Assembly (NCBI RefSeq): GCF_019972135.1
Contig: NZ_BPFI01000001.1
Location: 1,037,106 to 1,101,105, forward strand
Direction: 5' to 3'
Source: Sulfurovum sp. TSL1
GTDB taxonomy: Bacteria > Campylobacterota > Campylobacteria > Campylobacterales > Sulfurovaceae
Length of the DNA: 64,000 nucleotides
The notes under the pieces were generated by a model. The model made no database searches. It worked only from the letters and a program-made list of their open reading frames with translations, and had not been told where the DNA came from. The translations under genes were made by a program, and so were the position numbers. Each line of letters starts with the position of its first letter. Position 1 is the stretch's first letter. This document shows, piece by piece, positions 4,813 through 60,919 of this stretch.

Positions 4813-6093
4813 TCAGATCATACCGCCTGCTTTCAATCCCCACGTCGTTCTCCATCTGGTCTTCACAAGTGAGATGCCTGCGATCGCGACTAGAACCACT
4901 GCTGCAAATATCATAAATCCTGCAGTATACCCGTCAAAAGCACCTTTTGACCAACCCAGGGTCTTGATCAGTGCAGTACCGCCGAGACCGCCGGCTGCAC
5001 CGATGATCCCAGTCATAATACCGATATCTTTACCAAACCTTTGCGGGACCAGCTGGAAGACTGCTCCATTTGCCATACCCAAGTTTGCCATGATAAGAAA
5101 AAGCACCACGATGGCCAAGCCAAACGGCAATGCAATGGTAGCATTTACCACAGCCAGTGCTGCAACCGTACCAAAGAAGATATAGAGTGATTTTACTCCA
5201 CCCATTTTATCTGCAATGGCACCGCCTACTGGCCGAAGTACGGCACCTGAAAAAATACACAATGCACCAAAATAACCTGCAACGACTTTCACATTGTCCT
5301 CATCCAATATATCCAGTCCAAATGCGCTCATCTCTACCTGATAGGTGTTCATCAAATAGACTTTCATGTACCCTGCAAAACCTACAAACCCGCCAAAACT
5401 CACTGCATAGAAAAGATTGAACCACCAGGTATCCTTATCTTTAAGCAGTTTCCCGTAATCAGAGAGTTTTTTAGGTCTGGCTTTATAGACAGATTCCGGT
5501 GCATTTTTAGCTATGAATGCATAGGCTATCCATACTACGATAGCCATAACCGCACCCACCAGAAATACGGATTCCCAACCCCATTTTTCTGCGATCTTAG
5601 GCGCAAATAAGAAGTCAATGACCACACCGATGTTACCCGCTCCGGCAAGCCCAAGTACAACGCCTTGTAACTTAGGCGGATACCACTGACCCGCCTGAGG
5701 AAGTGCCACAGCAAATGATGCTCCCGCAAAACCAAGCCCCAACGCTACGATAAGCAGGGCATTGTACGTAATGGTCTCACCCATAAAATATGCCATGAGA
5801 AGTGCTGCGATCACTACAGACTGTGCCATGAGCGCTGTCAGTTTTGCACCGAGCTTATCCACCCCGAAACCAAGTAGGATCCTTAACAGTGCACCAGATA
5901 AAATAGGAAGTGAAAGCAGTGTGGCTTTTTCGCCCGCTGTTATCATATAACCTGTCGCAGCCAATGCCTCACTGATCTCTGTAGAGAGCGGACCTAACAT
6001 GGTCCAAACCATAAAACTCATATCAAAATATAAAAAAGCCATGAACAACGTAGGTGTATGTCCCTGCCCTTTCAACGCCTTAAATCCTGCCAT
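4813..6093 (-). CDS. nasA: Nitrate/nitrite MFS transporter (NasA/NarK-like, NNP family)
   Basis: Major-facilitator permease of the nitrate/nitrite porter family, expected in the inner membrane. The 426-aa protein has about 12 hydrophobic segments, an N-terminal FLYFDMSFMVWTMLGPLS segment typical of NarK/NasA, and glycine-rich helices (LGLGFAGASFAVALPQAGQW; MTGIIGAAGGLGG) matching the nitrate signature regions. The start at 6093 (MAGFKALKGQG) follows a strong GAGGAG Shine-Dalgarno; the longer in-frame start at 6204 would add 37 hydrophilic residues without an RBS. It is divergent from the sirohaem/nitrite/nitrate reductase operon, which fixes its role as assimilatory nitrate uptake. The upstream 17-bp palindrome at 6161 suggests nitrogen control. 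Confidence 0.93.
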   Translation of the reverse strand: MAGFKALKGQGHTPTLFMAFLYFDMSFMVWTMLGPLSTEISEALAATGYMITAGEKATLLSLPILSGALLRILLGFGVDKLGAKLTALMAQSVVIAALLMAYFMGETITYNALLIVALGLGFAGASFAVALPQAGQWYPPKLQGVVLGLAGAGNIGVVIDFLFAPKIAEKWGWESVFLVGAVMAIVVWIAYAFIAKNAPESVYKARPKKLSDYGKLLKDKDTWWFNLFYAVSFGGFVGFAGYMKVYLMNTYQVEMSAFGLDILDEDNVKVVAGYFGALCIFSGAVLRPVGGAIADKMGGVKSLYIFFGTVAALAVVNATIALPFGLAIVVLFLIMANLGMANGAVFQLVPQRFGKDIGIMTGIIGAAGGLGGTALIKTLGWSKGAFDGYTAGFMIFAAVVLVAIAGISLVKTRWRTTWGLKAGGMI

Positions 6094-6160
6094 TTTTTCT
6101 CCTCTCAGATGAATGATTCGTGAAGTATACAATGATAAGAGAGTCATATTTATTGATTTA

Positions 6161-6177
6161 TGATTAATTTTTAACCA
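6161..6177 (-). promoter_or_regulatory. Putative nitrogen-regulon operator, site 1 (upstream of nasA)
   Basis: TGATTAATTTTTAACCA, an imperfect copy of the TGATTAA-N3-TTAATCA palindrome seen near other nitrogen genes in the window. It is centred about 76 bp upstream of the nasA ATG and about 50 bp upstream of the start site implied by a TATACT-like -10 box at 6125-6130 on the minus strand. A weaker half site (TGATTAA, 6238-6244) lies on the sirohaem synthase side. Confidence 0.5.
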
Positions 6178-6323
6178 TTTATTTTTTACATAAATATGGG
6201 CCAAAACCTACATTAAAATTATATATTCAAAACATATTGATTAAAAAATATACAATTATATGAATATGTAACCATCTTTTCAGAGATATAATGACATCAA
6301 TTACAGCGAGGATGATCATAAAG

Positions 6324-7586
6324 ATGAAACAGAGACAAACTTTACCCATATTACTGAAAGAACAGCATATTCTTTTGATCGGTGGTGGGAATGTAGCATT
6401 GCAAAAAGCAGAAGTACTGGCAGAGAACCATATCTCTTTTTCTGTGATATCCCAAGAAGTGCACCCTAAGATACAAACATTGTGTTCTGACATACAGATC
6501 AAAAAATTCAAAACGAAAGATATTCAAAAGCATCTCATTGTGATAGATGCTACTGGGAATGAAAAAGTCACACAAAAACTTTTAAAGTATAAACAGAAAC
6601 ACCCTCTTTTACTCAATGTGGTAGATCAACCTAAAGTCTGTGATTTCTACTTTATGGCACTGACAAAAAATGCACCGCTTCAGATAGCCGTGTCAAGTTC
6701 CGGTGCAAGTCCTACTGTGGCTAAATACTTCAGAGATAAGTGTCAGGCACTCATGCCCGATAATATGGAAACATTTTTGGAAGCGTTGCAGTCACAAAGG
6801 GACAAAGGGATCATAAAGATAGAAAAAACGCTTGAAAAGATCGAACAAATGACAGCCAAGGCGTATCTGGTAGGCTGCGGTCTGGGAGATCCTGAACTGC
6901 TTACACTCAAAGCCTATAACATTATCAAAGAGGTGGATGTCGTCCTCTATGATCACCTCATCAGTGACGAGATCATGGCTATCGTACCAAAACGTACAAA
7001 GAAGGTCTTTGTAGGTAAAGAAAAAGGATTTCATACTAAACCCCAAGAAGAGATCAATAAACTCATACGCACATATATTAAAAAAGGGTACTCCGTTGCA
7101 CGATTGAAAAGCGGTGACCCCTTCATCTTTGGCCGTGGTGCCGAAGAGTTACTTTACCTTTCACAAAAAGGTATCAGAACTGAAGTGATACCGGGTATCT
7201 CTTCAGCAGTATCAGGACCGCTGATGGCAAATATCCCTGTCACAGCAAGGGATTACAGTAATGCCTTTACTGTCGTCTCAGCCCACTTAAAAGGGAATGC
7301 CATCAATCTCAACTGGGTACCGATGTTGGAAAACAGAGATCATACGGTCGTCGTATTGATGGGGCTTACACGGATCAAAGAGATCGTACAGCAGGCAAAA
7401 GCATTACATATAGAGTTGGACACACCTTGTGCCATTGTCTCCAATGCAAGCCGGAAGAACCAGACCGTACTTACCACGACACTTGAGAACCTTGAAGAGG
7501 TTTCCCTTGGGGCATCAAGACCTTCTATTTTGGTCTTTGGAGACGTCATACACTATACAAACACACTGAAAGAGAGTCTAACATGA
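6324..7586 (+). CDS. cysG: Sirohaem synthase, CysG-like (dehydrogenase/ferrochelatase plus uroporphyrinogen-III methyltransferase)
   Basis: Makes sirohaem from uroporphyrinogen III. The N-terminal about 150 residues form the Met8/CysG precorrin-2 dehydrogenase-ferrochelatase domain (ILLIGGGNVALQKAEVL nucleotide fold; SSSGASPTVAKYFRDK). From about residue 178 comes the SAM-dependent methyltransferase domain (YLVGCGLGDPELLTLKA; VARLKSGDPFIFGRGAEE; VIPGISSAVSGP), so the order matches full CysG at near-normal length. The start is not certain: ATG at 6324 aligns best with the family and has GCGAGG 12 bp upstream, while ATGs at 6291 and 6312 are also in frame. Its stop overlaps the nitrite reductase ATG by 4 bp, implying translational coupling and supply of sirohaem to that enzyme. 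Confidence 0.92.
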   Translation: MKQRQTLPILLKEQHILLIGGGNVALQKAEVLAENHISFSVISQEVHPKIQTLCSDIQIKKFKTKDIQKHLIVIDATGNEKVTQKLLKYKQKHPLLLNVVDQPKVCDFYFMALTKNAPLQIAVSSSGASPTVAKYFRDKCQALMPDNMETFLEALQSQRDKGIIKIEKTLEKIEQMTAKAYLVGCGLGDPELLTLKAYNIIKEVDVVLYDHLISDEIMAIVPKRTKKVFVGKEKGFHTKPQEEINKLIRTYIKKGYSVARLKSGDPFIFGRGAEELLYLSQKGIRTEVIPGISSAVSGPLMANIPVTARDYSNAFTVVSAHLKGNAINLNWVPMLENRDHTVVVLMGLTRIKEIVQQAKALHIELDTPCAIVSNASRKNQTVLTTTLENLEEVSLGASRPSILVFGDVIHYTNTLKESLT

Positions 7587-9505
7587 GCATTTTAGAAAAA
7601 GCCTCACAGGCAAGAAATACCAAACTCAACAAAGTCGAGACAACCAAAGCACTGAAGATGCCGATGGATGTATATACCAAGTTAGAAGAGATCGCTGCAG
7701 CCGGATATGAAGGTCTAGCCAAAGAGGACAGTGCCTATTTTTTAAAATGTTTTGGACTCTTTGACAAAGGGGAAGACTTTATGCTTCGCGTGCGTATACC
7801 TGCTGGACAATTGAACTATGAACAAGCGTTACGTATCGGTGAAGTGGCGCAAAAGTACGGGAATGACTATATCGATCTGACGACACGTATGCAGGTCGAA
7901 CTGCGTTACTTGCAGATAGCAGACATTGCCAAAGTGTTACAGGAACTCAAAGAGGTCGGTATCTCTACGTTTCAGACCGGTGTGGACAACCCTCGGAATA
8001 TCGTGACCGATCCACTCGACGGCATCGCATACGATAACATCATTGAGACCAAACCCATCATTGATGCACTCCAAACTATCTTTGGAGAAGATCCGGACTG
8101 GATCTCCGTATTGCCACGTAAATTCAATACAGGTATCTTAGGTTCTCTTTCGAACTCCTGTAACATCTTTGGACATGACTGCTGTTTTGTCTTAGCCCAA
8201 AAAGATGGGGTATTTGGATTTAACATCTATTTGGGTGCGTGTGTAGGTGTACAGGCACAAGATGCCAACCTTTTTGTGCAGATAGACGAAGTGGGTCTCT
8301 TCTACAAATCACTTCTGACTGTATTTAAAACGTACGGATACCGTGATAACCGTAACAAAAACCGTTTGGTGTTCCTTATCAATGATGTCGGTATAGAAAA
8401 CCTTGTCAATGCGATCAAAGAAGAGGCCGATGCCCAATTTGCTCCTGCAGGTACGACGATGGTACAGTCTCAAAATATCGCACTGGGGTCCAACAAAGTA
8501 CTGGGACGTAATGGTAAATATAATTACAAGATCATCGTACCCTCTGGTATATTCAGCGGTACAGACATGATCGCTGCGGCCCAGGCAGCAAAAGTATTTG
8601 GTACAGGGGATATAAGATTGACCTATGACCAGAATGTCTATATCGTAAATATTGCAAAAGATCTACTGGAAGATTTTGAGGCGACAGAACTGATCACGAA
8701 CTATGCGAAGTTCAATAATCTCTACTTTAATGACATGATAGCCTGTGCCGGGACAGCTACCTGTAGCTTTGGTGTCATACCGAACAAGCCTGATGCCATA
8801 GAAATGGCACATTTCCTGAGCTCTGAAGTAGCCATTACAAATGCCAATGTACGTATGAACTGGTCTGCCTGTCCTAAAGGATGTGGCGTACATGGTATCG
8901 CTGATATAGGATTTGAAGGGTGTAAAGCCAAAGATGAAGAAGGTAACCGTGTGGACGGTGTACACATTTTCGTCGGTGGTAAGATCACGCGTATGGCAAA
9001 AGAAGCACATACCTTACATAAAGCCCTGCCGTTAACAGAAGCCAAACATCATGTGAAATATCTGCTTAAGACCTATGCAGCGTATAAACAAAGAGGTGAA
9101 ACCTATGAAACTTTTGATGACAGGTTTTTATCGGCAAACTACTCTTTTCAAGCCCTTGGTTTTTACACAAAGATAAACTATATCCTCAATGAAAAACTGG
9201 GATTGGATCTTTGGTTTGAACTTGAGAGTGCACCAAAAACATTTAAAAAAGAAGAGTTTGAGATTTTTGCTTTTGGATTGAAACTCTTTAAACTGCTTAC
9301 GGGTGAAAAACGTTATGAGTCGGTTGAAAACTTTGAACCTGTACTGGCCAAACCCAGAAACATTACAAGAGATGAAGTCACCAAACTCAATCCGAAAGTC
9401 CCCCCAAAGCTCTCAGAGGTCATCTACACTATGACCCATCAAGAAAAAAGAGAACGTGCACAGGTCTTCTCTGAGCTGATCGTAGCACTTAAAGAAGTTC
9501 ACTAG
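7583..9505 (+). CDS. nirA: Ferredoxin-type nitrite reductase (sirohaem, 4Fe-4S), with C-terminal extension
   Basis: Six-electron reduction of nitrite to ammonium in the cytoplasm. The two-fold ferrodoxin-like/NIR-SIR architecture is recognisable, and the four cluster/sirohaem cysteines are present: C388-x5-C394 (CAGTATC) and C430-x3-C434 (CPKGC). The nitrate reductase gene follows immediately and the sirohaem synthase gene precedes it, favouring nitrite over sulfite as substrate. At 640 aa it is about 100 residues longer than typical NirA, the excess lying after the last NIR-SIR domain (roughly residues 535-640) without a motif I recognise. No NirB-like FAD/NADH domain is present, so ferredoxin is the likely donor. 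An assimilatory sulfite reductase is the alternative. Confidence 0.9.
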   Translation: MSILEKASQARNTKLNKVETTKALKMPMDVYTKLEEIAAAGYEGLAKEDSAYFLKCFGLFDKGEDFMLRVRIPAGQLNYEQALRIGEVAQKYGNDYIDLTTRMQVELRYLQIADIAKVLQELKEVGISTFQTGVDNPRNIVTDPLDGIAYDNIIETKPIIDALQTIFGEDPDWISVLPRKFNTGILGSLSNSCNIFGHDCCFVLAQKDGVFGFNIYLGACVGVQAQDANLFVQIDEVGLFYKSLLTVFKTYGYRDNRNKNRLVFLINDVGIENLVNAIKEEADAQFAPAGTTMVQSQNIALGSNKVLGRNGKYNYKIIVPSGIFSGTDMIAAAQAAKVFGTGDIRLTYDQNVYIVNIAKDLLEDFEATELITNYAKFNNLYFNDMIACAGTATCSFGVIPNKPDAIEMAHFLSSEVAITNANVRMNWSACPKGCGVHGIADIGFEGCKAKDEEGNRVDGVHIFVGGKITRMAKEAHTLHKALPLTEAKHHVKYLLKTYAAYKQRGETYETFDDRFLSANYSFQALGFYTKINYILNEKLGLDLWFELESAPKTFKKEEFEIFAFGLKLFKLLTGEKRYESVENFEPVLAKPRNITRDEVTKLNPKVPPKLSEVIYTMTHQEKRERAQVFSELIVALKEVH

Positions 9506-11521
9506 ATGAGTCAAACAGTGTGTGCATACTGTGGTGTGGGATGCAAATTAGAACATATCAATGATACACTTAAAGGCGTAAAGGAGTATCCTTCAAACCA
9601 GGGGATGTCATGTGCCAAAGGTATCTCACAATCAAAAACCGTCCATACCAATAGACTATTGGAGGTACACTGTAGAGATTCTATACAAGAGAGTTACAGA
9701 CCTTCCACTTATGCGGATAGCTTCCAATTGATTGCTGAAAAAATCAAACAGACTGCCAACCCTGACAGAATCGGATTTTATCTTTCCGGGCAAATGCTCA
9801 ATGAAGACTATTATGTAGCCAATAAACTTGCAAAAGGTTTTGTCGGAACGGCCAATTGTGATACCAATTCAAGAACATGCATGGCAAGTGCTGTCGTGGG
9901 ATATAAAAAATCTTTCGGAATGGATTATGTTCCCGTAAGAATGGAAGATATCGAACATTGTAATTTAATGATACTCATTGGTGCCAATACTGCTGAAGCA
10001 CATGTTGTATTGCACAACAAGATCAAAAAAGCACAAAAAAAAGGCTTAAAAGTTGTCGTCATTGATCCAAGATTTACACTGACTGCTAAAAATGCTGACC
10101 TCTACATACCCCTTAAAGTCGGTACAGATATCGATCTTTTGAATCTACTTGCTATAAAATTGATAAAAGACGACCATATTGCGTATGATTTTATAAAGGA
10201 GCACAGTAACAATTTCAATAGCTACAAAGAGAAGCTCTTGGCACTTGATGAAAAAATGCTCTTAGAGCGCACACAACTTTCAGAAGATATTTTTGAAGCT
10301 TTGTACAGACTTTTTAGACAGAGTAAAAATATCATCACTGCATGGACCATGGGGATCAATCAATCCGTTCAGGGGGTAGATAAAAATCTTGCTATCAACA
10401 ATCTACATATACTAACAGGACAGATCAATAAAAAAGGTTCCGGCCCATTATCTCTCACAGGACAACCCAATGCAATGGGTGGAAGAGAAGTAGGAGGTTT
10501 GAGTACAACGTTGGCCGTCCATTTGGACTATAGTGAAGAGAACTGCCAAAAAGTATCTGATTTTTGGCAGAGTGACACGCTACCAAAAGAAAATGGTCTC
10601 ACAGCTTTTGAAATGATCGAGAAAGCAGATAAAAATGAACTGGATATCCTCATTATCTGTCATACGGACCCTGTCTATCATCTTCCTCATCGGACATTTG
10701 TTGAAAAAGCATTCAAGAAGATACCTCTGGTGGTTGAGATCAATGCCTATCAGGGAAGTGAAACTTCCAAATTCGCGCATATCCTCATACCAGCAGTACC
10801 GTTTGGACAAAAAGAAGGCACACAGACAAACCTCGACAGGACCTTGACACGTGTAGTAGCTTTTGAAGATAAACATGGTTTACTTCAAGATTGGGAAGTA
10901 TTCGCCCAAATAGGAAAACATTTGGGTCATAAAAAAGCATTTGGTTTTCAATCGTCCAAAGAGGTCTTTGAAGAGTATCAGGAAATGACAAGATTGAGTT
11001 ATAAAAGTCACCTTGATATCTATAAAGCAAACTATGATGCCCTTGAACATACGCCTTTTATATGGGGAGAAGCACTCTATGATAAAAATGAATTTCTCAC
11101 GCCAGACAATAAAGCAAATCTTTTGTTTGTAGAAAACCAAAATCTATCAGAACAACCATCCCCAGCGTATCCTTTTATCCTGCTCACAGGACGAACAAGA
11201 GATCAATGGCATACAGGCAGTAAAACTCTCTATACAGACAATCTTTTAAAATATAAAGCGTTAGAGTTTGTAGAAATACATCCAAAGGATGCCGCAGCAC
11301 TTGGTATCAATGAGGATGAAACAGTAAAAATAATCTCTGTCAGAGGAGCACTCAAAGCAAAAGTTGTTTTCGCAGATATCAATCCAAAAACCATTTTCAT
11401 TCCTATTTCACATAGAGACATCAATTATCTTACAGATGATAGACTCGATCCACTTTCAAAAGAGCCTGATTATAACCATAGTGCAGTCAGAATAGAAAAA
11501 ATAGAAGAGTGTACATTGTAG
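9506..11521 (+). CDS. narB: Assimilatory nitrate reductase, NarB-type molybdopterin enzyme
   Basis: Cytoplasmic reduction of nitrate to nitrite. The N-terminal [4Fe-4S] motif is C6-x2-C9-x3-C13-x22-C36. The molybdenum-ligand Cys is in TNSRTCMASAVVGYKKSFG (C125). A molydopterin-dinucleotide-binding C-terminal domain includes LLTGRTRDQWHTGSKT and PISHRD. At 671 aa it matches the shorter ferredoxin-dependent NarB rather than the longer Klebsiella-type enzyme with an extra C-terminal Cys cluster, which is absent. The ATG directly follows the nirA stop codon (0-bp gap), so cysG-nirA-narB form one operon. No ferredoxin gene is seen nearby. Known in other systems as narB, nasA or nasC. Confidence 0.93.
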   Translation: MSQTVCAYCGVGCKLEHINDTLKGVKEYPSNQGMSCAKGISQSKTVHTNRLLEVHCRDSIQESYRPSTYADSFQLIAEKIKQTANPDRIGFYLSGQMLNEDYYVANKLAKGFVGTANCDTNSRTCMASAVVGYKKSFGMDYVPVRMEDIEHCNLMILIGANTAEAHVVLHNKIKKAQKKGLKVVVIDPRFTLTAKNADLYIPLKVGTDIDLLNLLAIKLIKDDHIAYDFIKEHSNNFNSYKEKLLALDEKMLLERTQLSEDIFEALYRLFRQSKNIITAWTMGINQSVQGVDKNLAINNLHILTGQINKKGSGPLSLTGQPNAMGGREVGGLSTTLAVHLDYSEENCQKVSDFWQSDTLPKENGLTAFEMIEKADKNELDILIICHTDPVYHLPHRTFVEKAFKKIPLVVEINAYQGSETSKFAHILIPAVPFGQKEGTQTNLDRTLTRVVAFEDKHGLLQDWEVFAQIGKHLGHKKAFGFQSSKEVFEEYQEMTRLSYKSHLDIYKANYDALEHTPFIWGEALYDKNEFLTPDNKANLLFVENQNLSEQPSPAYPFILLTGRTRDQWHTGSKTLYTDNLLKYKALEFVEIHPKDAAALGINEDETVKIISVRGALKAKVVFADINPKTIFIPISHRDINYLTDDRLDPLSKEPDYNHSAVRIEKIEECTL

Positions 11522-11542
11522 TGTATTCAGGTATACACTACA
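11517..11542. terminator. Perfect 10-bp palindrome holding both stop codons of narB and the DUF234 gene
   Basis: Arms TGTAGTGTAT and ATACACTACA flank a 6-nt loop. The narB TAG (11519-11521) lies in one arm and the convergent DUF234 gene's TAG (11538-11540 on the minus strand) in the other. It probably forms an RNA hairpin in either direction. No U-tract follows on either strand, so intrinsic termination would be weak; mRNA 3'-end stabilisation is an alternative. Confidence 0.55.
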
Positions 11543-12386
11543 ACAAGTGCTCCAGATCATTCAGATCAAACAAAAGCAGATCATCATCCTGTGCTTGCAA
11601 GAGTTCATTTGAAAATCCGCTCTTGGAAAAGAGGGCATAGACATCCACTTTAATGCCTGACTCTGCTGCTTTTGCTTTGAGCTTGGTCAATTCGTTCTTG
11701 CATACTTTTCGGTCTTTGTACTTGCACTCTCCCAGGATGACCTTTTTATCCTGACTCACAGCCAAAATATCGAATTCACTGTGAATATTCCAAAAACTTC
11801 CACTATCCACGATACTCTTATGCTCTGCATAATGCTGTATCAAAAGTGCATCACAAAGCTGTTCATAGACCAAAGAACGTAAACGCTCATAGTGTTTTTC
11901 AAAGTTCTTTAAAAATGCATCCCCTTTCCCTGCAGCCAGATCTTTTTTATAATATGTCACAAAGCCGAACCAGAAACGCATAAAGGGCTGTACAAAACGG
12001 AGTTTATCCTGTACACGGTAAGAGCGTTGCTCTTTTTTGAGTTTATGTTTGGGGTGGCTGCGCAACGGAGATTCTCTTGAAGCTTCGACTTTCAGTACAT
12101 TTAAATCGACCAGTTCCCCGACGATCTTCTCTCCCAGGGCCTCACTCACTTTTGCCTTTCTAAGTACGGAATAGAGTTTTCCGTCTCCTCTGGCTACTGC
12201 CATCAGTATTTCACGATAGGGACTTTCCAAAAGGTATGAGGGAGAGACAAGTGCTTGAAATTTTGAGAAATTTTGCACAAAATTTGACTCGACCATAGAA
12301 AAGACATCATCAAAATAGTCTAATTCTATATTTTTGCCAATACCGCCCAAAATAGAGAAATACTCAACAGCCTGCTCAAGTTCCAA
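11538..12386 (-). CDS. DUF234 (PD-(D/E)XK nuclease-like) protein without its usual ATPase domain
   Basis: 282 aa. The last ~100 residues contain HSEFDILAVSQDKKVILGECKYK (around residues 203-222), a PD-(D/E)XK arrangement (D...E-x-K) as found in the C-terminal DUF234 domain of archaeal/bacterial DEXX-box ATPases. The N-terminal half looks like a winged-helix region (YREILMAVARGDGKLYSVLRKAKVSEALGEKIVGELVDLNVL). The N-terminal P-loop ATPase that normally precedes these domains is missing. It sits convergent to narB and divergent from the regulator pair, and no link to nitrogen metabolism is evident. Function unknown; stand-alone DUF234 proteins are known in this phylum. Confidence 0.7.
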   Translation of the reverse strand: MELEQAVEYFSILGGIGKNIELDYFDDVFSMVESNFVQNFSKFQALVSPSYLLESPYREILMAVARGDGKLYSVLRKAKVSEALGEKIVGELVDLNVLKVEASRESPLRSHPKHKLKKEQRSYRVQDKLRFVQPFMRFWFGFVTYYKKDLAAGKGDAFLKNFEKHYERLRSLVYEQLCDALLIQHYAEHKSIVDSGSFWNIHSEFDILAVSQDKKVILGECKYKDRKVCKNELTKLKAKAAESGIKVDVYALFSKSGFSNELLQAQDDDLLLFDLNDLEHLL

Positions 12387-12493
12387 GTAAGAAAAATGTC
12401 GGTAAAACCTTTGAAATGATGCTTTGATGAAATCCCTTTGTCCATAGATTTAATTATTTTAACATATTTTTATTTTAATTTTTGTATTATAAA

Positions 12494-12510
12494 TGATTAA
12501 TTATTAAACA
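12494..12510 (+). promoter_or_regulatory. Putative nitrogen-regulon operator, site 2 (regulator gene promoter)
   Basis: TGATTAATTATTAAACA, matching TGATTAA-N3-TTAATCA except in the last arm. It begins only a few bases after a TATTAT/TATAAA -10-like box at 12485-12493 and 16 bp before the regulator ATG, so it would overlap the transcription start. That position fits autorepression, unlike the activator-like positions before nasA and amtB. Confidence 0.45.
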
Positions 12511-12525
12511 ACACCAAAGAGTATT

Positions 12526-13260
12526 ATGGAAACATTTTTTAGCAAATCAGATAAAATACAACATATCATCAAGAGTTTTACCCTCACCAAAACACTTTTT
12601 GTTTCATCTATCATCATTGGTGAAGCACATACCGGTAAAAAGTCACTTGCACGTTACCTTTTCCCGGATACACCTTTGGTTTCAGGTAACGATCAACAAG
12701 AAGTTGAGGAAGCACTTGAGCAAAATGATGAGCTTATCATCACCAATTTTGAAAAGCTCAGTAATCAGAATTCTCTTGATTTTACCAATAAACGTATTAT
12801 AGCTACAGCAGATTATATGGGTAATCCAGAGCTCATTGATGACCTTTTTGCTTTTATTTATACCATGCCGTCACTCCAAGAGCGTCCTGAAGATATCGAT
12901 TATTTAAAAGAACTCTTCATCAAAGAGGCATGTTCCACTTTAATGCTAGAAGGGAATACATTTGAATCTGAGTACATCCCTCTCAATCTCACGAAAAACA
13001 GTAAAAGTCTCAAAAGGTCTGTCTATATACACCTGATGAAACAGACTATGAACGCGCAGGATATAGAAGAGATACTCTATCACTATCTACTGAAGCACCT
13101 TGATGGTAACGATGCATACAGGGAACATCTTAGTTTATATGAGAGGCCTCTTATAGAAGCGGGGCTTCACAAATTTGGTTCACAACTGCAGCTTTCACAG
13201 GTTTTGGGGATCAACAGAAACACACTTAGAAAGAAGATACATGAGCACAACATCGATTGA
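12526..13260 (+). CDS. Truncated NtrC-like transcriptional regulator with Fis-type HTH, no receiver, no GAFTGA
   Basis: 244 aa. A Walker A-like IIGEAHTGKKSLARYLF (residues about 30-46) aligns with the GExGTGKE loop of sigma-54 activators. KRIIATADY resembles sensor I, and MPSLQERPEDIDYL matches the PPLRERxEDI signature. The last ~36 residues are a clear Fis/NtrC HTH ending in LGINRNTLRKKIHEHNID. Missing are an N-terminal receiver domain, the GAFTGA loop that contacts sigma-54, and the acidic Walker B (ELIITNFEKL instead of LFLDE). It therefore probably regulates sigma-70 promoters. It overlaps the following PAS gene by 20 bp and precedes amtB-glnK, which argues for nitrogen control. The specific target site is inferred, not shown. 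Confidence 0.82.
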   Translation: METFFSKSDKIQHIIKSFTLTKTLFVSSIIIGEAHTGKKSLARYLFPDTPLVSGNDQQEVEEALEQNDELIITNFEKLSNQNSLDFTNKRIIATADYMGNPELIDDLFAFIYTMPSLQERPEDIDYLKELFIKEACSTLMLEGNTFESEYIPLNLTKNSKSLKRSVYIHLMKQTMNAQDIEEILYHYLLKHLDGNDAYREHLSLYERPLIEAGLHKFGSQLQLSQVLGINRNTLRKKIHEHNID

Positions 13261-13942
13261 TTTTAAATCCTTTATAGAATGGGACAACAACCCTTTCATC
13301 CTTTTTAATGATCAGGGGAAAATACTCTATCTAAATAACGCTGCAGAAATTTTATTCGGGTATGTCACCAAAAAGGAACTTTATGATATCGCTTTATCTT
13401 ATGCGCCTCAAACCTTCGGCTATAAGACCACCTCTCTGGGACTCAATTATGACACCTATAACTTTCATGCTATTGCAGTAGGATATGAGAATGAAGAGCA
13501 GATCTCCTTACGTCTATACAACACGCCACGTATAAAACCCACACGTAAAATAGAAAAAGACAAACTTTTCACCACAGATATTAACATCCTGCTTGAAGCC
13601 AACATAGCACTTTTTAGAACAAAGAATTCCAATCCTCTGAAGCTTCTGACCGATCAGGATCTGCCTGCATTTAAAATAGACCAAAATAATTTCTCCAAAC
13701 TATTAAGAAAAACACTGAATGCATTTAGATCTTCAGACTCCATTGATATTTCTCTTACACTACTGGTTGGTCAGCATGTCATGATAGACAATCAAAGAGT
13801 CCCTATCGCTCAACTTTCCATACTTGCCAATGGGCGCTATGCAGATACTGATGATGAGATATGCAGCCATGCAGAGATGAGCCAGATCAAATGTGTTCTT
13901 AAAGAACACTCTATTAAGCTTGAAATTCCTCTGATTCAATAA
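13241..13942 (+). CDS. PAS-domain protein resembling a degenerate NtrB sensor
   Basis: 233 aa from the ATG at 13241 (MSTTSIDFKSFIEW), which overlaps the regulator gene by 20 bp; a further upstream in-frame start lies deep in that gene. Residues about 10-100 form a PAS domain (NPFILFNDQGKILYLNNAAEILFGY) like the NtrB sensor region. The remainder (KIDQNNFSKLLRKTLNAF ... AQLSILANGRYAD) looks like a worn histidine-kinase ATPase domain, but there is no phosphoacceptor His box and no convincing G1/G2 boxes. A catalytically dead partner of the regulator is the likeliest reading. What it senses is unknown; direct interaction with PII, as with NtrB, is a possibility. Confidence 0.7.
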   Translation: MSTTSIDFKSFIEWDNNPFILFNDQGKILYLNNAAEILFGYVTKKELYDIALSYAPQTFGYKTTSLGLNYDTYNFHAIAVGYENEEQISLRLYNTPRIKPTRKIEKDKLFTTDINILLEANIALFRTKNSNPLKLLTDQDLPAFKIDQNNFSKLLRKTLNAFRSSDSIDISLTLLVGQHVMIDNQRVPIAQLSILANGRYADTDDEICSHAEMSQIKCVLKEHSIKLEIPLIQ

Positions 13943-13952
13943 GCAGCCATAT

Positions 13953-13969
13953 TGATTAAAAATTAATCA
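13953..13969 (+). promoter_or_regulatory. Putative nitrogen-regulon operator, site 3 (upstream of first amtB)
   Basis: TGATTAAAAATTAATCA is a perfect 7+7 palindrome with a 3-bp centre, 80 bp upstream of the amtB ATG and about 50 bp before the start site implied by a weak TACTAT -10 box at 14001. It lies 10 bp after the PAS gene stop codon. Confidence 0.6.
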
Positions 13970-14040
13970 ACAGGCTATGGTAAAAAAATATCATTCATGT
14001 TACTATTGTCTTGTAAAAAATTAATTTAAAAGGAAATAGC

Positions 14041-15348
14041 ATGAAACTAAAACTTTCGGCTCTAATGGCAATGTTTTTGCCTATCTTCGCTTTCGCAGAA
14101 GATAAACTGGACACAGGTGATACAGCATGGATGATGGTATCAACAGCATTTGTACTTCTTATGACACCAGCAGGACTGGCACTTTTCTATGGAGGTATGA
14201 CAAGAGCTAAAAACGTACTCAATACCTATGCAATGGTAATGGGTGCATTTGTAGTTGCATTTGTTGTATGGATCATTGCAGGTTATTCTATTGCATTTGG
14301 AACCAATGAGAGCGCAATGCTTCAAAATGTGTTTGGCGGATTCGGTAATGTAATGCTTGACGGTATTAAGTGGACTGATCTTTCCGGTACATATCCTTCT
14401 TATGTATTTATTGCATTCCAAGGGACATTTGCTGCTATTACTGTAGCGATCGCTGCAGGTTCTGTGATCGAACGTATGAAGTTTTCAACTTGGATGGTCG
14501 TTGTAATCCTTTGGGGTCTTCTTGTGTATGCTCCTGTAACACACATGGTATGGGGTGGTGACGGTGCGCTTCTTTTTGATGCTGGTGCCCTTGATTTTGC
14601 CGGTGGTACTGTTGTACACATGAATGGTGGTTTAGCTGGACTTGTACTCGCACTATTGGTTGGTAAAAGAGCTGGTTACCCTAAAGTAGCTATGAAACCA
14701 TATAGTATCCTTCTTACTGCTGTAGGTGCTGCATTATTATGGTTCGGTTGGTATGGATTTAATGGTGGTTCAGCATTCGGTGCAAATGCTATCGCTGGTC
14801 TTGCTGTCATGACAACAACTGTTGCAACTGCTGCAGCTGCTGTAACTTGGATGCTTCTTGAGTGGTTTGTCTTTAAAAAGCCAACACTTCTTGGCATTGC
14901 TTCAGGTATCATTGCCGGTCTGGTTGCGATCACACCTGCTGCTGGTTTTGTAAGCGTTGGTGGAGCATTCATCGTAGGTATCGTTGGGTCTATCATTGCA
15001 TTCTTCGGTGTGGTAACATTGAAGAAAAAACTTGGTTATGATGATTCTCTTGATGCATTTGGTATCCACTTCCTAGCAGGTCTATGGGGTGCTCTTGCAA
15101 CAGGTCTTCTTGCACTTGATGACAAAGATCTTCTCTGGGATGGTCCACTTAAAGAAAGCGGTGACAGAATGGGACAATTCATGGTACAACTTGAGTCAGT
15201 CGTAGTGGTTGGTCTCTTTACACTTATTGGAACTGTGATCGTTTACTATATCGCTTCAGCGGTCACAGGTGGGGCAAGAGTAGATGAAGAAACTGAGTCA
15301 ACTGGTCTTGATGAGATAGTTCACGGTGAAAATGTAGTGAATGCCTAA
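14041..15348 (+). CDS. amtB: Ammonium transporter AmtB, first copy
   Basis: Inner-membrane ammonium channel of the Amt/Rh family. The 435-aa protein starts with a cleavable-type signal peptide (MKLKLSALMAMFLPIFAFAE), as in many bacterial AmtBs, then 11 membrane helices. The pore twin histidines are present in LDFAGGTVVHMNGG (His about 193, with the conserved Asp) and FGIHFLAGLWG (His about 343). FYGGMTRAKNVLNT is the family N-terminal signature. RBS AAAAGGAA precedes the ATG. It is followed after 36 bp by its PII gene. The upstream palindrome and the preceding regulator pair suggest induction under nitrogen limitation. Confidence 0.96.
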   Translation: MKLKLSALMAMFLPIFAFAEDKLDTGDTAWMMVSTAFVLLMTPAGLALFYGGMTRAKNVLNTYAMVMGAFVVAFVVWIIAGYSIAFGTNESAMLQNVFGGFGNVMLDGIKWTDLSGTYPSYVFIAFQGTFAAITVAIAAGSVIERMKFSTWMVVVILWGLLVYAPVTHMVWGGDGALLFDAGALDFAGGTVVHMNGGLAGLVLALLVGKRAGYPKVAMKPYSILLTAVGAALLWFGWYGFNGGSAFGANAIAGLAVMTTTVATAAAAVTWMLLEWFVFKKPTLLGIASGIIAGLVAITPAAGFVSVGGAFIVGIVGSIIAFFGVVTLKKKLGYDDSLDAFGIHFLAGLWGALATGLLALDDKDLLWDGPLKESGDRMGQFMVQLESVVVVGLFTLIGTVIVYYIASAVTGGARVDEETESTGLDEIVHGENVVNA

Positions 15349-15726
<378 letters not shown>

Positions 15727-15778: not shown

Positions 15779-15804
15779 GGGAGAAGCTCTTCTCCCTCTT
15801 CTTT
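15779..15804 (+). terminator. Rho-independent terminator after first amtB-glnK
   Basis: GGGAGAA / TTCTCCC stem with GCTC loop followed by the T-rich TCTTCTTTT. It lies 53 bp after glnK and immediately before the palindromic operator of the second amtB, so the two amtB-glnK modules are probably separate transcription units. Confidence 0.7.
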
Positions 15805-15821
15805 TGATTAATTTTTAATCA
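15805..15821 (+). promoter_or_regulatory. Putative nitrogen-regulon operator, site 4 (upstream of second amtB)
   Basis: TGATTAATTTTTAATCA, a perfect 7+7 palindrome with a TTT centre, directly after the terminator of the first module and about 126 bp before the second amtB ATG. No unambiguous -10 box was identified between it and the gene. Confidence 0.58.
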
Positions 15822-15938
15822 CTTTTCTCCTTTTTGACCCATTATCATTTTTAAACTGCTTTATTTTCGAGCAATACAGACTTCCAATAGATTCCAATAA
15901 TCGATACAATACCAACATTAGAATATAAGGAAATCAAT

Positions 15939-17111
15939 ATGGAAATTAATTACGTCATAGATACCTTCTTCGCACTTTTTGCCATGACTCTTATTATCTT
16001 CATGGTACCGGGTTTTGCCATGCTCGAAGCAGGATTGGTACGAACAAAAAATGTCACATCTGTACTGACGGTCAATGTCATGATCTATGCCATAGCTTCT
16101 CTGGCTTTTTTACTGATAGGGTATGAGCTGGCATTTGGAAGCTGGGATCATCAGGACGGTATGAGCAAATGGGCATTTTTTATGTTTCAAATGGCATTTG
16201 TAGGTAAAGTGGTCAATATTATGAGCGGCGGGGTAAGTGAACGTTCCCGTATACTGCCTTTGGCCATCTTCACCCTTCTTGTCGGGGCATTGATCTACCC
16301 GGTCATTGTAAACCTTACCTGGGGAGCGAACTTTTTAGCCGGCACCGCGTTGGATATCTCATCACTTTCTGACCTGGCAGGTTCAACGGTGATCCACTCT
16401 ACCGGAGGGTGGGCACTGCTTGCAGCTATCCTCATTATGGGACCCAGACGAGGAAGATACAAAGATAATATCGTCCGTGTCATTCCTGCGTCCAACATTC
16501 CTTTGGTCACATTGGGAGCACTTTTACTCTGGATCGGTTGGTTTGGATTTAACGGTGGTTCTGTGGGAACGATCTCATCAAAAGAGAATGCGGATGCCGT
16601 TGCACTGACTATCATGAACACCAATACAGCTGGTCTTGCCGGTGCAATTGCAGGATGGCTACTAACATACTTTAGATATAAAAAATTCGATATCACCGTG
16701 ATACTCAATGGTGCATTGGGTGGGCTTGTCGCCGTCACAGCCGGACCTGACCAATATGATATTCATACCCCTATACTGATCGGTGCGATAGGTGGCGCTT
16801 TGGTTGTCCTGTTCGTACCTATTTTCGATAAATTCAGAATGGATGATCCGGTGGGTGCATTGTCCGTTCACTTGATCAATGGTATCTGGGGTACACTTGC
16901 CGTAGGTATTTTTGTAGCAGATGTAAGCATTTGGACACAATTAAAAGGTATACTTGTTGTAGGTATGATTGTTTTTCCACTTTCATGGATTACAATATAT
17001 AGTATCAACAAGATCTTTGTACTTCGTGCAAATGATGAAGAACAACTTGAGGGAATCGATGCGACAGAGTGTGGTATAGAATCATACCCTGAATTTAAAC
17101 GCAGTATATAA
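15939..17111 (+). CDS. amtB: Ammonium transporter AmtB, second divergent copy
   Basis: 390-aa Amt-family channel, shorter than the first copy and without a signal peptide (starts MEINYVIDTFFALFAMTLII). The conserved pore residues remain: LAGSTVIHSTGG (His about 153) and LSVHLINGIWG (His about 311), plus MLEAGLVRTKNVTSVL near the N-terminus. It is clearly divergent from the first copy, so it is not a recent duplicate, whereas its PII partner is. RBS AAGGAAATCAAT precedes the ATG. It may differ in affinity or in partner PII; this is inference. Confidence 0.94.
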   Translation: MEINYVIDTFFALFAMTLIIFMVPGFAMLEAGLVRTKNVTSVLTVNVMIYAIASLAFLLIGYELAFGSWDHQDGMSKWAFFMFQMAFVGKVVNIMSGGVSERSRILPLAIFTLLVGALIYPVIVNLTWGANFLAGTALDISSLSDLAGSTVIHSTGGWALLAAILIMGPRRGRYKDNIVRVIPASNIPLVTLGALLLWIGWFGFNGGSVGTISSKENADAVALTIMNTNTAGLAGAIAGWLLTYFRYKKFDITVILNGALGGLVAVTAGPDQYDIHTPILIGAIGGALVVLFVPIFDKFRMDDPVGALSVHLINGIWGTLAVGIFVADVSIWTQLKGILVVGMIVFPLSWITIYSINKIFVLRANDEEQLEGIDATECGIESYPEFKRSI

Positions 17112-17119
17112 GGAGATAA

Positions 17120-17462
<343 letters not shown>

Positions 17463-17464
<2 letters not shown>

Positions 17465-40303: not shown

Positions 40304-40867
40304 CTATTCACTGACATAGGCTCCTCTTGCTCCACTCACAGAATTTTTAGACTTGTCTTTTTTACTTTTTTCAACCATTTTTAGGTTCATTTCATACTCT
40401 TTGGCAACCATATAACTGCCAAATGTGTCAAATTCATCCTCTCCTTTTGCATTGAGTTGTTTTTCAAGAAGTCTAAGATGTTGCTTCATTTTATCGCTTA
40501 AAGTGATGATCTCCTGGTAATGTACGGCAGATATTTTGATCGCTCCGTCACTTAACGGTTTTTTTCTACCAAATAAACTACTTTTATGCTTTGAGACACA
40601 GACTTCATAAATCTGCATAAAATGGTTATGTATGCCTTTCCATAATGCTTCGATTTCATATAAAGTATCCACACAGGTGCTATCCCTGAACAGCATGGCC
40701 TCCTGCTCCAGCCACTTTCCGAAATCAATGTCAGACATATTCAACTCAATGTCTTGTTTGTTTGTATCCAAAAGTCCCGCAGATAATAATTTTATCATGC
40801 CTACCCATCTGGTATGTTCTACTCTTGCTTGATGAAGATGATGTAGATATGTCTCTTTATTTGTCAT
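40304..40867 (-). CDS. CZB-like (chemoreceptor zinc-binding-type) domain protein
   Basis: 187 aa, soluble, no signal or membrane helix. Residues about 10-95 resemble the CZB domain: ARVEHTRWVGMIKLLSAGL, then DIDFGKWLEQEA where the usual zinc-ligand Cys of CxFGKW is Asp, and IEALWKGIHNHFMQIYEV with His residues. The remainder is helical and highly charged and contains no kinase, cyclase or methyl-accepting module. CZB domains bind zinc and sense hypochlorous acid or zinc in chemoreceptors and cyclases. Upstream lie a structured leader (40890-40935) and a nitrogen-type operator (40996). The biological role is unknown. Confidence 0.6.
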   Translation of the reverse strand: MTNKETYLHHLHQARVEHTRWVGMIKLLSAGLLDTNKQDIELNMSDIDFGKWLEQEAMLFRDSTCVDTLYEIEALWKGIHNHFMQIYEVCVSKHKSSLFGRKKPLSDGAIKISAVHYQEIITLSDKMKQHLRLLEKQLNAKGEDEFDTFGSYMVAKEYEMNLKMVEKSKKDKSKNSVSGARGAYVSE

Positions 40868-40935: not shown

Positions 40936-40995
40936 TTTTAATAATTTCCTTCAGAAATATTTTATCCCAAAGGAATACTTATATTTTTTATAACT

Positions 40996-41012
40996 TGATT
41001 AATTTTTAACCA
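40996..41012 (-). promoter_or_regulatory. Putative nitrogen-regulon operator, site 5 (upstream of CZB-like gene)
   Basis: TGATTAATTTTTAACCA, identical over all 17 bases to site 1 before nasA. It is centred about 137 bp upstream of the CZB-like ATG and about 50 bp before the start implied by the TAAAAT box at 40959-40964. This is the only copy I found outside the nitrogen island. Confidence 0.5.
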
Positions 41013-41034
41013 AATAAATATAGATACTGTTTTC

Positions 41035-58289: not shown

Positions 58290-60149
58290 ATGGCACCAAA
58301 AGACAGTATGAAGAGTATAGAAACGTTAATTCAGTCTAAGAAAAAAGGTGATGTGGTCACACTAGAGAACATCGCAAAAGAATTTATCAAACAACCGACT
58401 GCAGCGCAAGCTAAAAAGATCCATAAACTTGCCTCCGATACCAATATAGAAATCGTTTCTGCATCAGAATATGCAAAGTTTGTCACAACAAAAGAGAAAA
58501 AAAGAAAAGAAGATGCAAGAAAAAAACTTGTAGAAGGCAATGCAGAAGATGAGTTTGATCTTCATAAAGAAAAAGAACTTCTTGAGTGGAGCCGTTCCGA
58601 CAGCCCTGTCAGAATGTACCTACGTGAAATGGGAAAGATCCCTCTACTGACCAAAGAGGAAGAGGTTGATCTCTCCAAGCGTATCGAAGAGGGAGAAGAT
58701 ATCATCATCGATGCGATCTGTTCCGTCCCTTACCTTATAGGCTACATCATCAACTATAAAGAACCTTTATTGAATCGTGAAAGACGTGTAAAAGAACTTT
58801 TCAAAAGCTTTGAAGACGACAAATCAGATAAAGATGATTCTGATGATGATGATAATGACGATAATGACGATAATGAAACAACAAGTGCACCTAAAGATGA
58901 TAAAAGGGTCAAACAGGTAGTTGACAGCTTTAAGCGCCTTGAAAAAGCAAAAAAAGAGTGGATGAAGGCACGTGAAGACCTCGATACTTTTTTGGAAACG
59001 GAAACAGATGAAGTCAAGATCCTTCATGAACGTCTTAAGATCGCCTTTAAAAAAGAGGCCCTCAAAGCGGCACTTTTAAATCTTGGGCCAACCTCTAAAC
59101 TGATCAATGAACTTGTAAAAGCCATGGAAACGGCACTGAAGAGTGATGACAGTTTTGAGAAAGAGCTTAAACGTTTAGAGTATAAACTGCCACTTTTCAA
59201 TGATACACTCAAAGCCAATCATAAAAAACTGCTTGACAATATCATCAAGATGGATAAAGACGATATCATTGATGCCGTACCAGAGACGACCATGGTAAGC
59301 ACTTATGTTGAGATCAAAAAACTTTTTGAGACCAGAGAAGCAAGTAAAGGCGGATTTGATCTTTCTGAAGAGAAACTCCAGGAGATTTTGGAACAGATCC
59401 GTCAAGGTAAAGCGAAAAGTGAAGTAGCCAAGACAAGAATGGCAAAATCCAACCTTAGATTGGTTGTTTCTATCGCTAAACGTTATACGAACCGAGGGCT
59501 TCCGTTCCTTGACCTCATCCAGGAAGGGAACATCGGTCTGATGAAGGCTGTTGATAAATTTGAATATGAAAAAGGGTACAAATTTTCAACCTATGCAACA
59601 TGGTGGATACGCCAGGCGATCTCCAGAGCCATTGCAGATCAGGCAAGAACGATCCGTATCCCTATTCACATGATAGAGACGATCAACCGTATCAACAAGA
59701 TCATCAGGAAACACCTTCAGGAGACAGGAAAAGAGCCGGATCTTGACACGATCGCTGAAGAAGTGGGACTCTCTGTGGATAAAGTGAAAAATGTCATCAA
59801 GATCACTAAAGAGCCTGTCAGCCTTGAAACACCGGTAGGGGATGAAGATGATGGTAGATTTGGTGACTTCATTGAAGATAAAACGACACTCAGCCCAACC
59901 GATGTGGTACTCAAAGATGACCTGAACAACCAGATAGATGACGTACTTGATCAGCTGAATGAAAGAGAAAAAGCCGTGATCCGTATGCGTTTTGGTCTGC
60001 TTGAAGATGAGAGTGACAGAACACTTGAAGAGATCGGTAAAGAGCTTAGTGTGACACGTGAGAGAGTAAGACAGATAGAATCTTCTGCGATCAAGAAACT
60101 TAAGCACCCTAAAGTGGGAAGAAAACTTAAAAATTACATTGAAGAATAA
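58290..60149 (+). CDS. rpoD: RNA polymerase primary sigma factor RpoD
   Basis: 619 aa. Region 1.1-like N-terminus ([20 protein letters not shown]); region 1.2 with [32 protein letters not shown]; a long non-conserved region holding an extremely acidic stretch (residues about 180-200, mostly D/N). Region 2 has [57 protein letters not shown]. Region 4 has [25 protein letters not shown]. It reads the TATAAT promoters seen through the window. Confidence 0.97.
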
Positions 60150-60169: not shown

Positions 60170-60919
60170 ATGTCTGAACCTAGATTTTTTGCCCTTATTA
60201 TAGGTACAGAGATCCTAAACCGTCGAAGGGCTGATAGGCATTTTGACTTTGTCACCAGAGCTCTAGCCGAAAAGGGTCACAAACTCACCGGTTCTTTTAT
60301 TATAGAGGATGACCCTGCGCTTATTGTTCAAACGATCCAATTTATCGCTTCACAGGAAAATCCTCTGCTCTTCTCTTTTGGCGGTATAGGCTCAACACCT
60401 GATGACCATACCAGAAAATGTGCGGCTATAGCACTGAGAGATGGACTTCTTCACGTACATGAAGAAGCCAAAGCGATCATCGTCAACAAACTGGGTGAGA
60501 AGGCCTACCCCTACTCTGTACGTATGGCAGAACTCCCCGAAGGTGCAACACTCCTGGAGAACCCGATCAATCAAATGCCTGCTTTTGCAGTGGATGAACG
60601 CTATTTCTTTATGCCTGGTTTTCCGGAGATGAGCCATCCTATGGTGACTGAAATTTTAGAAAAGATCATACCGTATAAAAAAGAAACATTCCGACATACT
60701 CTCACCGCACACTGCAAAGAAAATATTTTTATAGAATTAATGGAAAGTATGCCTAAGGGTGTGGAATTCTCTTCTCTACCAAAACGCTACAGTGATAGCT
60801 GGAGGGTTACGATCTCCGTAGCATCAGAGGATAAAGTATTAGCGAAAGCATCATTTGATAAGTATGTCAATCTCCTTGAAAATAAAGATATTATCTATAC
60901 ACTGAATGATGGTGAATAG
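60170..60919 (+). CDS. MoCF-biosynthesis/CinA-like domain protein
   Basis: 249 aa with a MoCF (MogA/CinA-type) domain: ALIIGTEILNRRRADRHFDFVTRALAEKG, and FSFGGIGSTPDDHTRKCAAIAL, the molybdopterin-binding GGxGxTxDD-like signature. The C-terminal nicotinamide-amidase domain of full CinA is absent. It follows rpoD by 20 bp. Whether it serves molybdopterin synthesis (needed by NarB) or pyridine nucleotide repair cannot be told. Confidence 0.85.
   Translation: MSEPRFFALIIGTEILNRRRADRHFDFVTRALAEKGHKLTGSFIIEDDPALIVQTIQFIASQENPLLFSFGGIGSTPDDHTRKCAAIALRDGLLHVHEEAKAIIVNKLGEKAYPYSVRMAELPEGATLLENPINQMPAFAVDERYFFMPGFPEMSHPMVTEILEKIIPYKKETFRHTLTAHCKENIFIELMESMPKGVEFSSLPKRYSDSWRVTISVASEDKVLAKASFDKYVNLLENKDIIYTLNDGE

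Follow-up and report, generated by a model that had tools for sequence, protein, structure and literature searches.

A paired NtrC-like and NtrB-like protein without phosphotransfer and sigma-54 parts as a probable nitrogen regulator of Campylobacterota

Across most lineages of Campylobacterota two genes, here named A (pseudo-NtrC) and B (pseudo-NtrB), form a conserved and always paired unit, and they are kept as a pair even in genomes where they lie far apart. We consider it probable that they constitute a nitrogen regulator of this phylum which requires neither phosphorylation nor sigma-54 and which steers uptake genes via a palindromic DNA site; judging from the sequences, A and B very probably switch the genes for ammonium, nitrate and urea uptake through this site. 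The loss of the phosphotransfer and sigma-54 parts from both proteins is ancient, and the residues that remain are strongly conserved. Coordinates refer to the window, the whole stretch of 64,000 nucleotides of Sulfurovum sp. TSL1 that was analyzed; families, genera, genomes and loci carry our own labels (f, g, G and L).

Sulphur-oxidising Campylobacterota form one of the major groups of chemosynthetic organisms in vent and sediment habitats. In a literature search that covered few subscription journals, we found no paper describing the A/B pair as a nitrogen regulator of Epsilonproteobacteria or Campylobacterota, and none that names what regulates the uptake of ammonium, nitrate and urea in the sulphur-oxidising members. 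The pair provides a candidate regulator, a DNA site and a list of targets, all directly testable, and it indicates that a two-component system may lose every catalytic phosphotransfer and sigma-54 part and yet persist as a strictly paired regulator.

Architecture of the two proteins

The first-pass annotation had placed two overlapping genes at 12526-13942, and both were recovered there on the forward strand: A at 12526-13260 and B, starting with ATG, at 13241-13942, with reading frames that share 20 bp. A (244 aa) consists of a shortened NtrC-type AAA+ core followed by a Fis-type HTH, and B (233 aa) of a PAS domain and a CA-like fold without DHp. The nearest named relatives are from Sulfurovum, with Sulfurovum sp. 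AR at 93% identity, and neither protein belongs to a named family in the Pfam and NCBIfam libraries searched.

In these libraries A gives little signal beyond its C-terminal HTH (residues 206-240, containing NRNTLRKK; 13141-13245, +), which matches HTH_8 at 9.9e-6, above the Pfam cut-off; the best NCBIfam model is ntrC at 4.5e-10, far below that model's own cut-off. Profile and fold searches place A within the sigma-54-activator superfamily, the family to which it had been ascribed at first. The profile of the A family matched the PDB chains NtrC1, FleQ, PspF and Fis, some relatives exceed the Pfam Sigma54_activat cut-off, and the predicted structure of A (pLDDT 90.9), a check that had been proposed from the beginning, has NtrC4/NtrC1 as top structural matches (Z 15.3, 172 of about 235 residues aligned). 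About 60 residues of a normal NtrC-type core are without counterpart in A in this comparison, and the segment from the P-loop to the Walker B strand, the usual place of GAFTGA, is much shortened.

An alignment of 86 A proteins bears out most of what had been read from the single sequence, namely a retained Walker A-like loop and Fis-type HTH together with a missing receiver and GAFTGA loop. The P-loop (GEAHTGK, residues 32-38; 12619-12639, +) is retained family-wide, with G32 and G37 in 86/86 members and K38 in 84/86, while a GAFTGA-like word is absent from 86/86; A has no receiver with a phospho-Asp and starts directly within the AAA+ core. At the Walker B place the 86 members carry T/E/K-N/D-F/I/L and not D-E, which is missing in either register of a strand whose alignment is uncertain by one residue. 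The protein of the window has T-N at this place, so that the absence of an acidic Walker B holds for it but not for the whole family, some relatives having retained an acidic residue. Among 32 diverse A proteins 19 columns are invariant, and most of these belong to the P-loop or the HTH.

The PAS domain of B is a weak Pfam match (9e-4, below the cut-off). In the predicted structure (pLDDT 87) residues 109-233 (13565-13939, +) have the CA domain of NtrB/NRII, 1r62, as top structural match (Z 15.0, 121 residues aligned), this domain being about 30 residues shorter in B than in 1r62. The PAS domain runs straight into it, with no DHp helices between the two in the model. The aligned B family has no conserved histidine that could represent an H box (the best His column reaches 35/73) and neither DxGxG nor a glycine/ATP lid at the N, G1, F and G2 boxes. 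The description of B as a PAS domain with an ATPase-like fold and no H box was thus correct, and neither family showed an intact H box or an equivalent of GAFTGA, so that the computable outcomes named beforehand as refuting did not occur; calling the fold of B 'worn' was misleading, given so old a loss and the strong conservation of what is left. One genome (G202) carries a second copy of B beside a clpX-like gene (L088:6099-6818) in addition to an A-linked B.

Co-inheritance of A and B

The phylogenetic distribution, a second check envisaged at the outset, was followed by running profiles of both proteins over 298 genomes of Campylobacterota with a completeness of 90% or more. A was found in 101/298 and B in 101/298, and the two sets of genomes are identical; a search with a single B sequence had overlooked unlinked orthologues that the profile recovered. 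A and B also agree in 34/36 further genomes, the two misfits being G236, whose genome is less complete, and G433, which has a weak A match only. At other taxonomic levels, A was found in 158/175 genomes of the family and in 260/394 good genomes of the order.

The joint absence of A and B arose more than once. It is seen in most members of f9 and f12, a subset of the f7 genus g17, one f8 genome and four f1 genomes that are 97-99% complete. Where members of f7, f9, f12 and f8 carry the pair, A and B lie apart from each other (one case in f7 excepted), and joint loss in these families is therefore informative. The A/B-lacking genomes of g17 (G180, G197, G223, G247, G267, G304 and G336; L124-L127, L145-L147) keep PII, with amtB in several; in these close relatives A, B and the palindrome have been lost despite PII.

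It might be supposed that A and B are functionless, decaying remnants of a two-component system, having lost receiver, GAFTGA, DHp, H box and ATP lid altogether. In almost all of more than 150 genomes their frames are open and of full length, many residues are invariant, and the two genes occur together in 101/101 genomes; we give this idea virtually no credit, and pseudogene decay is ruled out by conservation.

PII is present in 101/101 genomes with A and B and in 36/197 without them. The latter 36 genomes, which keep PII in the absence of the pair, are a counterpoint to the nitrogen reading.

Genomic neighbourhoods

In the window A and B lie among genes for nitrogen uptake and assimilation. 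Upstream are a gene for a NarK-family nitrate/nitrite transporter on the reverse strand (4813-6204, -; TIGR00886 1e-67, below cut-off; true start probably near 6105) and, on the forward strand, the nitrate-assimilation operon, which begins with a siroheme synthase-like gene as read from the sequence (6291-7586, +) and also holds genes of the nitrite/sulphite reductase type (7583-9505, +) and the molybdopterin nitrate reductase type (9506-11521, +). Downstream are the ammonium transporter genes amtB1 (14041-15348, +) and amtB2 (15939-17111, +; TIGR03644 1.5e-116 and TIGR00836 3.6e-86, both below cut-offs), and the PII genes glnK1 (15385-15726, +) and glnK2 (17123-17464, +). All of these apart from glnK2 are probable targets of the pair, and PII, the product of glnK1, is in addition a possible input to B. 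A minus-strand DUF234 gene (2.7e-15; 11538-12386), probably unrelated, separates A from the nitrate reductase gene.

Elsewhere A occupies one of two homes: the slyD-fabD interval (f15, f19, f3, f4, f8, f9, f12, part of f17 and others) or the vicinity of amtB-glnK (f1, f5, f7, f14, part of f17 and one f15 genome). Of the 91 genomes for which coordinates were listed, 29 have A at most 8 kb from a PII gene, where 1.1 would be expected by chance, the genomes being related so that these are not 29 independent events; linkage of A with amtB-glnK extends over six families. The connection with nitrogen, drawn originally from one neighbourhood, has thus gained support from this linkage, from the co-occurrence with PII and from the palindrome common to the upstream regions of nitrogen genes.

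B also has two homes, and in 0/80 genomes does it occupy both. It adjoins A in 32/80, with a usual overlap of 8-23 bp, and in 47/80 it follows rpoD in the same orientation, the distance being mostly 1-16 bp (outliers are two loci with a spacing of about 300 bp and one with an overlap of 11 bp); in 1/80 (G181) it is in neither place. Loci with B behind rpoD include L074-L082, L086, L087, L092, L093 and L108, and the identity of rpoD was confirmed by Pfam regions 1.2, 2, 3 and 4. The combination of A in slyD-fabD and B behind rpoD in many genomes speaks against a locus dedicated to nitrogen and suggests expression of a housekeeping kind or tied to growth, and the position of B behind rpoD may reflect steady expression only, or may mark a contact with sigma-70.

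Taken to its end, the latter thought would make B chiefly a partner of sigma-70, anti-sigma- or appropriator-like and derived from GHKL proteins, with the pair coupling RpoD to the nutrient state. GHKL-fold anti-sigma factors exist, and B is directly downstream of rpoD in the 47 genomes and never beside A as well; however, in the 32 genomes where B is with A, rpoD is without it (in the window a different gene, 60170-60919, lies behind rpoD, 58290-60149), and the nearest structure among the matches listed is the NtrB CA domain, although the lack of anti-sigma factors in that list says little either way. We judge this role for B highly improbable.

A palindromic site before nitrogen genes

The gap between B and amtB1 contains a perfect palindrome, TTGATTAA-AAA-TTAATCAA, whose 15-bp core fits the published Fis consensus GNtYAaWWWtTRaNC (PMC2816674). 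The general form, TTGATTAA-N3-TTAATCAA, first came up in this analysis and fits the same consensus. An exact scan of the 64-kb window returned five Fis-consensus places, four of them at promoters of the nitrogen cluster. The sites, given without strand, are ATGATTAATTATTAAACAA (12493-12511), 14 bp before A and probably autoregulatory; the perfect site TTGATTAAAAATTAATCAA (13952-13970), 70 bp before amtB1; TTGATTAATTTTTAATCAC (15804-15822), 116 bp before amtB2; ATGATTAATTTTTAACCAT (6160-6178), in the intergenic DNA from which the NarK-type transporter gene and the siroheme-nitrite-nitrate reductase operon diverge; and TTGATTAATTTTTAACCAA (40995-41013), 128 bp before the gene at 40304-40867 (-). 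The last gene codes for 187 aa with no Pfam or NCBIfam match and, by eye, a CZB-type look. It is the placement of the window sites and not the number of matches that is telling, as match counts in this AT-rich DNA are modestly above chance (6 vs 3.1 and 6 vs 1.4 in two scans).

Over the whole genome (2.35 Mb), at most one mismatch being allowed, the pattern gave 11 forward matches vs 1 for a reversed control pattern. Beyond the window the palindrome precedes a nitrate ABC transporter (TIGR01183 9e-64, TIGR01184 8e-96), a urea-type ABC transporter (TIGR03427 7.5e-167) and porins. That some of the putative targets are porins is a further counterpoint to the nitrogen reading; two outer-membrane porin-like genes of this genome have the palindrome upstream (L132, site 4080; L134, site 3421) and are possibly porins for nitrogen sources. 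A candidate with one mismatch, C1:729148 (L136), was rejected, being weak as a 19-mer and having no nitrogen genes beside it.

The B-amtB1 gap holds no sigma-54 promoter-like match. A sigma-70 promoter prediction at amtB (TCAACA-16-TATCAT, 13967-13994) was set aside, the count of such matches being no better than chance.

The site in other genomes and the recognition helix of A

In its strict form (at most two mismatches) the site was found before amtB/glnK in 19/75 regions of A-bearing genomes, where shuffles predict 0.2, with representatives in f1, f3, f5, f12, f14, f15, f17 and f19; it was found in 0/16 regions of genomes without A and B. In several of the strict-site genomes amtB is distant from both A and B. 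A looser form, TTGNNTAANNNTTANNCAA, which was framed after seeing the data, precedes amtB/glnK in 32/37 genomes with A vs 1/15 without it (Fisher 9e-8, kinship ignored), at a median distance of 67 bp from the start codon. The contrast recurs inside f7, where the looser site is present in 5/8 A-bearing genomes vs 0/7 A-lacking genomes of g17.

Whole-genome counts follow the same line: 5-10 sites in Sulfurovum vs 0-3 for controls, about as many as the control in A-lacking f7 genomes, and low counts, mostly of two-mismatch matches, in f9 and f12 genomes without A. Before amtB the strict site was not found in G207 (f19) and G327 (f15), nor either form in G351 and G257 (f7). In most Sulfurovum loci a site lies 13-35 bp before A itself, and none is present there where A occupies the slyD-fabD operon.

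The half-site varies with the recognition helix of A, a correlation noticed after the fact. The helix NRNTLRKK goes with the half-site TTGATTA or its TTGCCTA variant, and NR[I/A/T/M]TL goes with TTGTATA, in 9/12 non-N genomes with a site. The switch occurs inside f17 and inside f15. The other three of the 12 are exceptions from f14 (NRVTL), of which two have TTGATTA and the third is mixed. An asymmetric site with the halves TTGATTA and TTGCCTA stands before amtB in f3 and f1-g2 genomes (L121, L120, L046, L073).

From this correlation we infer that A binds the palindrome, and a different, co-inherited regulator could own the site. Such an owner might be a CRP/FNR-family protein, A and B acting elsewhere: the half-sites TTGAT/ATCAA resemble an FNR box, and the co-inheritance would be compatible with a third gene. 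The spacing is 9 bases and not 4, for which reason the palindrome was rejected as an FNR box; the core agrees with the consensus of Fis, a different recognition helix in A comes with a different half-site, and the palindrome precedes A itself, all of which make another owner very unlikely.

It could also be thought that A is a Fis-like global growth regulator with B as its modulator, nitrogen genes being some of many targets and the link with amtB-glnK incidental. The slyD-A-fabD operon, the fact that in many families B follows rpoD at 1-16 bp, and the Fis-like HTH of A would agree with this. Yet about 11 strong sites in 2.35 Mb are far fewer than expected of a global Fis, most of the identified genes at strong sites are nitrogen uptake genes, sites before amtB persist where A is unlinked, and A and B are confined to PII-bearing genomes; we therefore regard a global role as quite unlikely, and continue with A and B as a nitrogen regulator.

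Proposed mechanism and comparison with known systems

The ancestors of A and B would be an activator resembling NtrC and a sensor resembling NtrB, whose phosphotransfer and sigma-54 contact were lost early in the phylum. A would work as a dimeric Fis-like protein on the palindrome and steer sigma-70 promoters, as suggested by the missing sigma-54 loop in A together with the missing sigma-54 promoter-like match in the B-amtB1 gap. The site at amtB, about 67 bp before the start codon, would fit activation by A, and that at A, 14 bp before the start codon, autorepression; that A activates rather than represses is a guess from site position. Nucleotide at the retained P-loop may tune the assembly of A without a hydrolysis cycle. 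B would sense nitrogen status, most likely through contact of PII with its CA-like domain and/or through a PAS ligand, and would hold or release A by direct contact, in the manner of NifL on NifA. Under nitrogen limitation A would then turn on ammonium, nitrate and urea uptake.

The closest counterpart in architecture is NtrB-NtrC (NRII-NRI), which shares with the pair the AAA+ core and Fis-type HTH of A, the PAS and CA fold of B, for which the NtrB CA domain is the best structural match, and the amtB-glnK neighbourhood. Unlike it, A and B are without receiver, GAFTGA, D-E Walker B, DHp/H box and ATP lid, and are 244 and 233 aa long vs about 470 and 350.

NifL-NifA likewise joins a PAS and non-catalytic GHKL protein to an AAA+ activator. 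NifA keeps GAFTGA and acts with sigma-54, unlike A, which also lacks its GAF domain, and NifL of A. vinelandii, in contrast to B, retains a nucleotide-binding GHKL domain and an H domain. The NifL-NifA system is controlled by contact and by PII, GlnK acting through the GHKL domain (PMC9866876). By analogy we infer that B contacts both A and PII, and that it would control A through contact, with PII as input.

A second precedent is the GAFTGA-less NtrC of Rhodobacter capsulatus and Caulobacter, which acts on sigma-70 promoters of nitrogen genes (PMC10274813). It resembles A as an NtrC-type protein without GAFTGA, but keeps the receiver, phosphorylation and a true NtrB kinase, none of which A has. 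The best reading by analogy is that A and B would work like NifL-NifA combined with R. capsulatus NtrC.

A bolder version of this reading, which we hold to be unlikely, is that B bridges PII, A and sigma-70, and that phosphorelay and sigma-54 control were replaced phylum-wide by contacts into the RpoD holoenzyme; if so, B would be expected beside A or behind rpoD.

With Fis, finally, A shares the recognition helix and the 15-bp consensus (PMC2816674). Fis is a protein of about 98 aa with neither an AAA+ core nor a partner, whereas A, at 244 aa, has such a core and few predicted sites per genome.
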